64,000 nucleotides of DNA, from the NCBI RefSeq assembly GCF_020567425.1, contig NZ_JAJCVJ010000001.1:1364001-1428000 (forward strand), given 5' to 3'. A program made the translations under genes and the position numbers. The notes beneath the pieces were generated by a model. The model had not been told where the DNA came from. It was given only the letters and a program-made list of their open reading frames with translations, and made no database searches. Source of the stretch: Salinirubrum litoreum. GTDB taxonomy: Archaea > Halobacteriota > Halobacteria > Halobacteriales > Haloferacaceae. How positions within the stretch are numbered: the first letter of the stretch is position 1; each line of letters starts with the position of its first letter. Below, piece by piece: positions 12,567-57,200 of this stretch.

Positions 12567-13275
12567 CGCAAACTCGGTCGAGTGTGTCGCGGACGACGAG
12601 GGGTGAAAGCCCCCGGCGTCTCGACCTCCCGCGACTCGTTGCGCGCTTCCCTCACGAGAGCGCGTCGCTTCGCTCGCGCTCTCGTTTAGTCCAGTGCTTA
12701 CGTCGTCGGGGGAGGATCGAGACGCCGGCCCCTTTCAGTCCCACCCGGAGTTTACGAAAGATCACGTCGCGTGGGTGGTCACCCGGTGAATCGTCTGCGA
12801 GTCTGGAACCCGGTCGTCGCAATCGTCTCCCCTGACCTCCCCGACTGCTGGCGACCGAACTGCGAATCGGTCTTCGCTGTCGCTCAGACACGATTCGGTT
12901 CCGGTCGCCACCAGTTCGCGTCCAATGCGGGTTCCCGGCCGTCGGCGACAGAGTCGGGTGACGAGTGTTGCGTGCGCTCTCATCTCGGTCCCGGCGCGCG
13001 CGAGGAACGTGCGCGAGGGAGAATCGCGGGCGGTGCGGAGAGCGATTCGAGGCTGGGGAGGACCGAGGTGCGGTGCTGTGCGGTGGCGGTTCCTCGCGCT
13101 AGCACGAGTCGCGGTCGCTGTACTGTCGCGGTGGTCGATGCAGTTCGGTGCGCAACGACGAGTAGCGGTGCTGGTGCAGTTCGCGGTGCGGTCGCGGTCT
13201 GCGGTCGGTCTCGTGACCCTGTTGCTCTCACAGCACTGTCCAACCACGCACCCAGCGACACGAACACGACCCAGT
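12567..13275 (+). repeat. Dispersed structured intergenic element, copy 1
   Basis: This fills the 799-bp gap between two convergent genes. Parts in order: a leading motif ending GGACGACGAG (12588-12600); a head inverted repeat with left arm 12603-12624 (GTGAAAGCCCCCGG...) and right arm 12717-12746 (...CCCCTTTCAGTCCCACCC), enclosing a perfect GAGAGCGCG/CGCGCTCTC hairpin; a nested stem TGGCGACCG (12849-12857)/CGGTCGCCA (12902-12910) with inner stem CGAATCG/CGATTCG; the core hairpin GAATCGC (13021-13027), loop GGGCGGTGCGGAGA, GCGATTC (13042-13048); then GAGGCTGGGGAGG and a GCGGT-rich tail with TCGCGCTAGCACGAG. No reading frame is shared with the other copies. The outer limits are estimates. Confidence 0.72.
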
Positions 13276-20531: not shown

Positions 20532-21325
20532 TGAACTCGGCTGGATCGGTTTCGGACGACGAGCGGTGAACACTCCCGAACGATCCGGATTCTGTCGAAC
20601 ATAGCGCAGACGACGAGGGGTGAAAGCCCCCGGCGTCTCGATGGTCCGCGACTTGGTGCGCTCCTCAGTCGGTCGAGCCAGCAAGCTGGCTCTCCCTCCC
20701 TGCGGTGCTAGCCGGCGTCGGGGACCAGTCGAGACGCCGGCCCCTTTCAGTCCCACCCGAACTCTGCGACCCATCACGTCGTCACTGGTCGTCACCCGGC
20801 AAATCGTCGCAGATTCGGAATCCGGGTCGTTCGTACTCCACCACACCTCCCCGACTGCTGAGCGACCGACCTGCGAGCAGGTCCTCGCTGTCGCTCGGAC
20901 ACTGCTCGGTGTCGGTCGCCAGCAGATCGCATCCCGTCGGATTCCGGGTTGTCGTCAAGAGTGTCGGGTGACGAGTGTGGCGTGCGCCTTCATCGAAAAT
21001 TCGGCGCGCGCGAGGAACGCGTGCGAGGGAGGCGGAGGTGGGCGGTGCGGAGAACCCCCGCCGAGGCTGGGGAGGACGAGGTGCGGTGCTGTGCGGTCGC
21101 GGTGGCGGTTCCCCGTGCTAGCACGAGTCGCGGTGTTGTCGCGGTCTGCGGTGTGGTTGCGGATGCGGTTCCTCGCGCTAGCACGAGTAGTGGTGCTGTG
21201 GCGGTCGCGGTTTGTTGTGCAGTAGCAGTCGCAGTCTGGGTGCTAGCACGATCACGGATCACAGTGCTGTCACAATCACCGACGTACCACTCCCCACCAC
21301 AGAAATCGACGAACACGACCCCACG
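20532..21325 (+). repeat. Dispersed structured intergenic element, copy 2
   Basis: This occupies the 915-bp gap between the rpl11 promoter and uppS. The leading motif occurs twice (20551-20567 and 20603-20618). The head inverted repeat has left arm 20619-20641 and right arm 20729-20758, with a different ~87-bp interior from copy 1. The second hairpin set has outer stem GCGACCGAC (20862-20870)/GTCGGTCGC (20911-20919) and inner CGAGCAG/CTGCTCG. The core hairpin is GGCGGAGGT (21031-21039), loop GGGCGGTGCGGAGA (21040-21053), ACCCCCGCC (21054-21062). The tail carries three GCTAGCACGA motifs, two of them within GTGCTAGCAC palindromes (21117-21126, 21240-21249). The limits are estimates. Confidence 0.72.
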
Positions 21326-34456: not shown

Positions 34457-35311
34457 TCACTCCGTGAGTGTCAGGGACGCGAGCGACGCGAACATCGCTT
34501 CCTCCGTTCGCACCACCCCGCTTCCCTGTCGCGGAATCGTATTCAGCCAGAGGTCGAACCCCGCAGGACCGGGTTCGACGTTCTCGGCTCCGTCCCACCG
34601 CGGTCGGTGGGCGGTCACGTCCTCGACTGACACGTCGAGGATCTCCGGAAGCCCTCTCTCGGGCGACCCGAACGCGACTGTCATGTCGCGGTCGGCCCGG
34701 CCGGCCAGTGTCGCCAGCCGCGAGACGGACAGTTCCTGCCCGTGTCGCGACGTGGCGATCCGCACACCGGCACCCTCACGGCCGAGTGCTTCCGGGAGGT
34801 CCACGCGTTCGACGACGAACCCCGGGGGGTCGCCGTCCACGATTCGCGCGCGGACCGGTTCTCTCGAAGAGACCCTGATGGTGACGCGCTCCCCCACCTC
34901 GACCCCGTCGGGGGCGAAGAGGGAGATCGGGTGTTGCAGTCCGCAATTGACCCGAACGCGGCCGTCAGGTCCGACCTCGGTCACGATTCCCTGTCTCAGC
35001 TCCGATCCCTCCGGATCGGAACCGGTCTCCGTGAGCGCGCGGAGCGGCGGCAAGACACCGACGTACTCCAGTTCGTCCCGGACGCCCCACGCCTCCTTTC
35101 GGAGGTACGGCGGCGTCGCGGCGTACCGCAAGACGGTGTCGACGAACCCGCCGCCCCACCGACCCTCGCCTTCCCGGTCCGGGAAGACACAGAGGCGATC
35201 CGCCCGAAACACCGTCGCCGCGCGGGCGACGTAGCCGAGTTTGCGGGTCGCCTCCCGCTTGTCTTCGGCTTCTCGGACGAGGGACGACGGCACGAGTACG
35301 CTGAGTGTCAT
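34457..35311 (-). CDS. SPOUT-family putative RNA uridine N3 methyltransferase
   Basis: A 284-residue protein of the COG2106/DUF171 SPOUT family. MTLSVLVPSSLVREAEDKRE, GYVARAATVFRADRLCVFPD, RYAATPPYLRKEAWGVRDEL, and an S-adenosylmethionine-binding trefoil knot near the end. An OB-like insertion (RQGIVTEVGPDGRVRVNCGL) splits the domain, as in the family. It heads the S10 operon in many archaea, linking rRNA modification to ribosome synthesis; the target nucleotide is not known to me. A TATA box at 35363-35371 lies upstream, giving a short leader. Confidence 0.85.
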   Translation of the reverse strand: MTLSVLVPSSLVREAEDKREATRKLGYVARAATVFRADRLCVFPDREGEGRWGGGFVDTVLRYAATPPYLRKEAWGVRDELEYVGVLPPLRALTETGSDPEGSELRQGIVTEVGPDGRVRVNCGLQHPISLFAPDGVEVGERVTIRVSSREPVRARIVDGDPPGFVVERVDLPEALGREGAGVRIATSRHGQELSVSRLATLAGRADRDMTVAFGSPERGLPEILDVSVEDVTAHRPRWDGAENVEPGPAGFDLWLNTIPRQGSGVVRTEEAMFASLASLTLTE

Positions 35312-37927: not shown

Positions 37928-38690
37928 GGCGTGAACTCTGTCGAGTCGGTCGCGGACGACGAGAGGAGGTGAAAGCCCCCGGCCCCTTTGAGTCCCACCC
38001 GTCGAACTCTGCGACCCATCGTGCAACTCGCGGTGGACCAGTCGCTTTCAGCGTGCGCGCCTCCCTGCGACCGTCGGCGTGCCTGAGGCGGCCTCACGCC
38101 GCCGAAGTGCCCGAGATGAACGCGCGCCAGCCCGTTCGACTGGTGGGTGTGATGTGAGTCGGACCCTCCGGTCAGGTGTTGCGGTGCGGTGCTGTCGGCG
38201 CGCGCGGCTTGACGCGTGCGAGGGAGGGGTCGCGGGCGGTGCGGAGAGCGTCCTCGTGAGGGAACCGAACGAGGGCTGGCAAGAGCTTCGCTCTTGCTCT
38301 GACCCCGAGGCTGGGGAGGTTCGAGGTGCTGTCGCGGTCGCGGTGCGGTTCCTCGCGCTAGCAATCGTAGCGGTGCTGTCGTGGTCGCGGTCTGCGGTGC
38401 TGTCGCGGTCGCGGTCTGCTGTGCTGTCGTGGTCGCGGTCTGCGGTGCTGTCGCGGTCGCGGTCTGCGGTGCTGTCGTGGTCGCGGTCTGCGGTGCTGTC
38501 GGCGGTCTGCTGTGCTGTCGTGGTCGCGGTCTGCGGTGCTGTCGTGGTCGCGGTCTGCGGTGCTGTCGCGGTCGCGGTCTGCGGTGCTGTCGGCGGTCTG
38601 CTGTGCTGGCACGGTCACGGGTCGCAACGCGGTCGCAGTAGCTATCGCGGATGCTGATCTGATTACCGCCGACAGTCACGACACACGTAC
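37928..38690 (+). repeat. Dispersed structured intergenic element, copy 3
   Basis: It fills nearly all of the 875-bp gap after the BrkB gene. The leading motif CGCGGACGACGAG (37951-37963) is followed by head arms fused back to back (37969-38000), lacking the interior seen in copies 1 and 2. A long-range stem ACCAGTCG (38037-38044)/CGACTGGT (38137-38144) encloses a GGCGGC-CTCAC-GCCGCC hairpin (38087-38103). The core hairpin GGGGTCGC (38226-38233), loop GGGCGGTGCGGAGA, GCG...ACCCC (to 38306) has a 51-nt insertion in the 3' arm. The insertion has its own hairpin (GCAAGAG-CTTCG-CTCTTGC). A 24-bp tandem repeat tail follows. Limits are approximate. Confidence 0.72.
38366..38608. repeat. 24-bp tandem repeat array in element 3 tail
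   Basis: About ten units of a 24-bp sequence close to GGTCGCGGTCTGCGGTGCTG plus TCGY, with two units shortened to about 18 bp (GCTGTCGGCGGTCTG). The unit is a multiple of three, so several frames stay open on both strands, giving meaningless Arg/Pro/Gln- or Asp/Ser-rich readings. There are no spacers, so it is not a CRISPR array. Confidence 0.75.
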
Positions 38691-56639: not shown

Positions 56640-57200
56640 GGAGATCGGGGGTTCGGGTGTGAGGGCTGTGACTGTATCGTGGACTGTGACTGCTACTGCG
56701 ACCACTACTGCACCGCAGACCGCGACAGCATCCGCACCGCAGACTGCGACAGCACCGCGACTCGATCCGGGACAACCGGAATATTCGACCGCATCCGCAC
56801 AGCACCGCGACCGCGTCAGCACCGCACCTCAGTCCCCCCAACCTCGGGTGGCTCTCCGCACCGCCCGCCACCCTCCCTCGCGCGTTGCTCGCGCGCCGAC
56901 CGCAACCGCACTGCGACAGCCGAACTGAATTCCCGACTCACGTCACACGCACCAGTCGAGTGGGCTGGCGCGACACCTCGGCGGCGTGGGGCCGCCTCGC
57001 GCGACCTCCCTGTCGCGCACCTCGGCGGCGCAGGGCCGCCTCGGGCGACGCCGACGGTCACAGGGAGGCGCTCGCGCTGAAATCGACTGGTCCACCGGCC
57101 GTTGCGTGCGCTTTCGCAGAAGCCACCGGGTGGGACTGAAAGGGGCCGGCGTCTCCAACTCACCCGACAGGAGCTACCTCGAAGACCGAGTGTCCCGCGA
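56640..57200 (-). repeat. Dispersed structured intergenic element, copy 4 (inverted)
   Basis: It occupies most of the 749-bp gap between GT4 and tbsP in opposite orientation to copies 1-3. Read leftward: head right arm only (57156-57128, ...CCCCTTTCAGTCCCACCC), stem CGACTGGT (57084-57091)/ACCAGTCG (56951-56958), a CCTCCCTGT (57005-57013)/ACAGGGAGG (57060-57068) stem, and two GGCGGC-N5-GCCGCC hairpins (57024-57040, 56980-56996). Then the core hairpin with stem GGGTGGC/GCCACCC (56846-56873 including the loop), GAGGTTGGGG, and a GCGGT/CAGT-rich tail to about 56645. The left head arm is missing. Confidence 0.72.

Follow-up and report, generated by a model that had tools for sequence, protein, structure and literature searches.

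The PATEs and SMRs of Haloquadratum are the nearest described haloarchaeal elements to the repeat analysed here (PMC3119063). The PATEs of Haloquadratum walsbyi are palindrome-associated transposable elements, whose palindromes lie near their ends and are related to the ends of IS605-type transposons (PMC3119063). Like the PATEs, the present family is haloarchaeal, non-coding, palindromic and dispersed in many copies (PMC3119063), and no target duplication was seen in PATEs (PMC3119063) or, as far as the diverged flanks could be read, here; its members are likewise intergenic and too short to encode a transposase. However, no link to TnpA or TnpB was found for the present family, in which the internal boxes are fixed and the hairpins are variable. 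SMR-A is short and inserts into the palindromes of other repeats, which recalls the nested modules and the 51-nt insertion of copy 3 described below, but SMR-A copies, about 110 bp long, are nearly uniform in sequence and have inverted terminal repeats, whereas the insertions seen here are made of two variable hairpins with fixed linkers. Bacterial REP, BIME and REPIN sequences are also intergenic and multicopy, with hairpins of variable stem (for REPINs, PMC3116915); the present element differs from these in being much longer and haloarchaeal and in having other conserved boxes. A link to RAYT proteins was probed through Y1_Tnp alone, which gave 3 matches. The large structured RNAs of Rfam share with the family the arrangement of variable peripheral hairpins around conserved boxes. 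In Rfam 15, no family matched the element when the window was searched at the gathering score, and a search in E-value mode that included the Halorubrum loci returned only chance-level matches. No description of the element was found in the literature searched by topic and by the sequence of domain Y. The repeat family is apparently new to the literature and RNA families searched. Elsewhere in the window, at 34875-34968 on the minus strand, the Rfam L4-Archaeoglobi ribosomal protein leader (RF03135) was matched with 75.5 bits in this haloarchaeal host.

The window is the whole stretch of Salinirubrum litoreum DNA that was analysed, 64,000 nucleotides in length. The original prediction described four copies of one hairpin in it, and the positions and arms of all four were confirmed (Table 1). 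In our best reading, this hairpin is module B of an interspersed haloarchaeal intergenic repeat of about 100-450 nt. On the strand of the element, its parts follow each other in the order G+C hairpin A, box 1 (GCGAGGGA), hairpin B, box 2 (GAGGCTGGGGAGG), GAGGTGCGGTGCTGT and then degenerate GCGGT repeats. The unit formed by hairpin A, box 1, hairpin B, box 2 and tail is referred to as X, and a larger rod-like domain as Y.

Table 1. Features of the four copies in the window.
Copy	Feature	Position	Strand	Remarks
1	Hairpin A	12995..13015	+	CGCGCGCG(AGGAA)CGTGCGCG; covaries across copies (helix 1)
1	Box 1	13013..13020	+	GCGAGGGA; overlaps the end of hairpin A by its first 3 nt
1	Hairpin B	13021..13048	+	GAATCGC / loop GGGCGGTGCGGAGA / GCGATTC; hairpin under study
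1	Box 2 and tail	13049..13085	+	GAGGCTGGGGAGG, then tail ACCGAGGTGCGGTGCTGT...
1	Domain Y	12605..12746	-	Opposite orientation; GGGTGGGACTGAAAGGGG ... rod hairpin ... GGGGCTTTC
2	Hairpin A	21005..21025	+	
2	Hairpin B	21031..21062	+	Single A·C mismatch
2	Box 2 and tail	21063..21099	+	
2	Domain Y	20622..20758	-	Opposite orientation
3	Hairpin A	38199..38220	+	
3	Hairpin B	38226..38306	+	3' arm with 51-nt two-hairpin insertion
3	Box 2 and tail	38307..38343	+	
3	Domain Y stub	37968..38000	-	Motif GGGTGGGACTCAAAGGGGC followed directly by CGGGGGCTTTCACC, without rod
4	Hairpin A	56879..56895	-	
4	Hairpin B	56846..56873	-	GGGTGGC / loop / GCCACCC
4	Box 2 and tail	56809..56845	-	Box 2 variant GAGGTTGGGGGG
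4	Y motif	57128..57141	+	GGGTGGGACTGAAA; opposite orientation

An insertion like that of copy 3 was also present at locus L036. Recurrent two-hairpin modules with fixed linkers, such as CAGCGAGGCGC..GCGCCTCTGGCAGCCGGCG..CGCCGGCGAC and GTGGTTCGA..TCGTCATCACGA..TCGAACGACA, sit inside other hairpins and are at times inverted; they were seen at window 38250-38300, at L036 and in hairpin B and Y copies of Halorubrum. A long array of degenerate GCGGTCGCGGTCTGCGGTGCTGT units lies immediately after copy 3 (window 38330-38615). The stretch from Y to X holds CCTCCCCGACTGCTGGCGACCG in the reverse complement of window 12780-12990 and in other copies of the Salinirubrum litoreum genome, and on the other strand this sequence can be read as a hairpin with a GGGGAGG box after it, resembling a second X that faces away from the first.

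Across the 4.06-Mb genome, exact matches to the 14-nt loop GGGCGGTGCGGAGA number 40, divided 22 to 18 between the strands, and the same anatomy surrounds nearly all of them; the reversed pattern, used as a control, is absent. A covariance model trained on 29 copies gave 104 matches in this genome at a threshold of E <= 0.001, and 79 of the 194 Halobacteria genomes surveyed had at least one match. Among the genomes listed, each Halorubrum genome held at least 15-20 strong matches, and nearly all Halorubrum tested had close to 20 or more copies per genome; one Halorubrum region of 395 kb contained 17 copies, or about 43 per Mb. The loop had been described as invariant, which is correct for the four window copies and does not extend to the family, in which many loop types share the slot and the window loop is the most frequent of them. 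Alternative loops in the Salinirubrum litoreum genome include GGGCGGTGCCGAGA, TCTCGT and GTTCAT, among others, and the hairpin B slot in Halorubrum is filled by unrelated hairpins such as GTCGGTCGCCTCTGGCGACCGAC or GTCGCCCGGCGCTTATAAGCGCCGGGCGAC. The invariant loop was therefore rejected as the functional core, since its slot is also occupied by other loops. The constant parts are the two flanking boxes, and what is preserved in hairpin B is the pairing.

Covariation of the stems was borne out when 87 distinct copies, aligned by the model, were compared with shuffled copies and with slid registers. Paired cells amounted to 95.2% (76.5% in shuffles), double-changed cells to 203 (36 in shuffles) and the score to 0.432 (0.137 in shuffles), and registers slid by 1-3 columns were at most 62% paired. 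Double changes were found at 14 of the 17 pairs, and covarying pairs exceeded the controls in hairpins A and B and also in Y. Since this alignment was fitted to the structure, an alignment-free count of arms was added: 41 distinct arm pairs were 95.5% Watson-Crick, compared with 50.7% (maximum 59.9%) when the arms were re-dealt. The region is G+C-rich and has degenerate GCGGT repeats, a setting in which similarity might arise by chance; however, the loop count against its reversed control (40 to 0), together with the covariation controls, excludes this explanation, and we give it practically no weight.

The stem changes had been taken as compensating. Stepwise changes do exist: 13 pairs of perfect arms, which look like stepwise compensation, are separated by a single base-pair difference, and intermediates with A·C or G·T are found in hairpin B stems. 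But hairpin B behaves in addition as a unit that can be exchanged. Among Halorubrum genomes with 96-97% identity in valS, the element is retained at the valS locus and its hairpin A is the same, whereas the hairpin Bs are mostly unrelated and yet paired (GTCGGTCGCC/GGCGACCGAC, GTCGCTGGCGCGG/CCGCGCCAGCGAC, GGCGGCGGGCCGG.../... and others) and are identical in only two of these genomes. A species at 92% valS identity has an empty site at this locus. In the Salinirubrum litoreum genome, the flanks of copies with the same hairpin B arms resembled each other no more than those of copies with different arms, both upstream (0.595 and 0.583, respectively) and downstream (0.655 and 0.639). The differing hairpin Bs at valS and the independence of the flanks from arm sharing indicate that exchange probably moves hairpin B as a whole, and that point-by-point compensation is not the sole source of its covariation. 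A further idea, which we consider tentative and rather unlikely, is that the family is an archaeal class of multicopy and probably transcribed elements whose hairpin slot, between the two fixed boxes, is re-filled by active exchange with new perfect inverted repeats; this would make the stem sequence hypervariable and yet preserve the fold.

When a transition strikes a stem, the mismatch seen on the element strand is G·T or A·C. The two should be about equally frequent under mutation alone, while selection on a folded RNA or single-stranded DNA of that strand spares G·T. In hairpin A, the G·T to A·C ratio was 61:11 (p=1.5e-9), and 35:2 within the Salinirubrum litoreum genome alone; the rod of Y gave 37:13 on its own strand. 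The copies are related, so these counts for hairpin A and Y overstate independence. No strand bias was found in hairpin B (14:9, p=0.4), in which G·T cells were few although double changes were many. The absence of a mismatch bias, the scarcity of G·T and the identical hairpin Bs in otherwise unrelated copies suggest that part of the hairpin B covariation stems from exchange of whole hairpins and not from stepwise selection. The constraint on a folded strand that had been proposed from the four stems is well supported for the element as a whole by the covariation of A, B and Y and by the G·T bias in A and Y, and is weaker for hairpin B itself.

It is also conceivable, although we regard it as doubtful, that the pairing of hairpin B is kept up by a mechanical process in the DNA, either template-switch correction of quasi-palindromes or en bloc conversion of perfect inverted repeats, without selection on the fold. 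The rare and unbiased mismatches of hairpin B, the small number of its G·T intermediates next to numerous double changes and its replacement as a whole agree with such upkeep, but the conserved boxes, hairpin A and Y would be left unexplained, and the 13 perfect arm pairs one base pair apart resemble stepwise compensation.

The predicted RNA folding energies of the element strand and its complement were -40.7 vs -27.0, -42.7 vs -28.2 and -31.4 vs -23.5 kcal/mol, in each case favouring the element strand. Among 85 Halorubrum copies with an upstream gene directed at the element, 45 have a TATA-like sequence just 5' of hairpin A, compared with 0 of 85 in the adjacent control stretch before it. 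The promoter of a divergent neighbour is insufficient as an explanation, because the sequence is present also where the upstream gene points to the element; it thus seems to belong to the element. If transcription started about 25 nt past the TATA box, the 5' end of the RNA would fall inside hairpin A and the outer stem would be partly lost, a point that was weighed against the preferred reading. Folding of one strand of the element, in the form of a putative RNA or single-stranded DNA, is supported by the mismatch bias of hairpin A and Y.

The covariation, the bias towards G·T, the unpaired but conserved boxes and the 5' TATA-like sequence speak for a family of functional non-coding RNA genes or regulatory RNAs (attenuator, decoy or protein-binding RNA) selected at each site. 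However, copies are decayed or absent at orthologous places, their orientation to genes is not fixed and hairpin B is entirely replaced over a span in which the conserved neighbouring gene diverges by 3-4%, and we judge site-by-site selection of this kind to be improbable.

None of the 232 copies (88 in Salinirubrum litoreum and 144 at Halorubrum-type loci) overlapped a gene predicted by a simple codon-based gene finder. A fixed link to a neighbouring gene was rejected, as all four neighbour orientations occur, and no partner protein for the element was found. Comparison of three partly syntenic Halorubrum regions (about 400 kb) revealed presence, absence, decay and replacement of copies at orthologous places. 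No target-site duplication or clear ends were found at empty sites, where the exact ends are unreadable because the flanks are about 90% identical and the intergenic DNA is scrambled. A remnant of IS605 beside TnpA or TnpB is unsupported, since these genes are few (3 TnpA and 15 TnpB matches in the genome) and mostly distant from the copies; the relation to IS605 was judged by this proximity, and of the 15 TnpB matches only 1 has a copy at a distance of up to 5 kb. A viral origin was rejected on 0 exact-pattern matches in viral contigs and no phage match, and a plasmid origin on matches to 1 and 4 plasmid records, the 4 being haloarchaeal. Contig C3 of the Salinirubrum litoreum genome has 1 match in 596 kb, compared with about 15 expected from the genome-wide density; this scarcity is unusual for a freely mobile element, and it was counted against the reading that we prefer.

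These data bear on whether the family is simply transposase-free mobile DNA of the PATE or SMR kind, with hairpins that serve as single-stranded recognition structures for a trans-acting transposase and have no RNA function. About 100 dispersed copies without fixed neighbours, the differences in presence between species and the nested two-hairpin insertions, which recall the SMR-A insertions into PATE palindromes (PMC3119063), are in line with this possibility, and a single-stranded DNA of one strand would likewise yield the G·T bias. We nevertheless think it unlikely, in view of the few and mostly distant transposase genes, the absence from phages, the 4 plasmid records and the single copy on contig C3, the empty sites without clear ends or duplications, and the TATA-like sequence that seems to form part of the element.

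The reading that we prefer, at about even chances, is that of a haloarchaeal intergenic repeat family that is folded as one strand, probably RNA, and scattered like a transposase-free mobile element. One particular strand would fold, most likely as RNA, although a single-stranded DNA intermediate of the same strand would fit as well. In Halorubrum, the RNA would be started by the TATA-like sequence that borders the element on its 5' side. A trans-acting factor may read the fixed boxes and may need hairpin B merely as a perfect stem of any sequence. Copies would spread and vanish in the manner of a mobile element that lacks a transposase, and hairpin B would be replaced whole via recombination between copies, with compensatory steps of one pair in addition. 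If this is true, the family is among the more abundant structured non-coding elements of haloarchaea, and it is present in culturable Halorubrum. When the copies of a repeat covary strongly, compensation step by step is not the only possible cause, because exchange of whole hairpins can yield the same pattern; the comparison of G·T with A·C helps to separate the two and could be used on other repeat families.

Domain Y usually lies near X: in Halorubrum it follows downstream and shares the strand of X, and in Salinirubrum litoreum it is found upstream and on the opposite strand. The lack of a single fixed relative orientation of X and Y was also counted against the preferred reading. Y starts with GGGNGGGACTNRAAGGGG and ends with GGGGCTTYN. 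The stem at its flanks stays paired (CAAAG/CTTTG in 91, GAAAG/CTTTC in 30 and CGAAG/CTTCG in 27), and the folded rod shows a comparable run of small internal loops in each of the two genera. Of the 194 Halobacteria genomes, 102 contain the 19-nt Y motif, which is represented in 37 of 65 genera; its reversed pattern is absent from every genome. Y also holds four conserved G tracts, GGGNGGG and two GGG that face each other between covarying stems, as at Halorubrum-type locus L086 (+) and at window 12605-12746 (-). These tracts could form a quadruplex in the KCl-rich cytoplasm of haloarchaea; the quadruplex mode of ViennaRNA predicted one in 0 of 86 sequences, which is no refutation because its loop limit excludes a hairpin loop. 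In three genomes (G138, G089 and G079), two Y motifs stand head to head at several places with their starts 45-47 bp apart, an arrangement not noticed in Halorubrum. Downstream of Y in Halorubrum (L072, L086, L183 and L202), tandem units of about 60-70 bp of the form CTGGGGCTTTGGAGGTGTTCACCGCCGATCC...TTTATAAACGAGCGG were observed, often with a TATA-like sequence.
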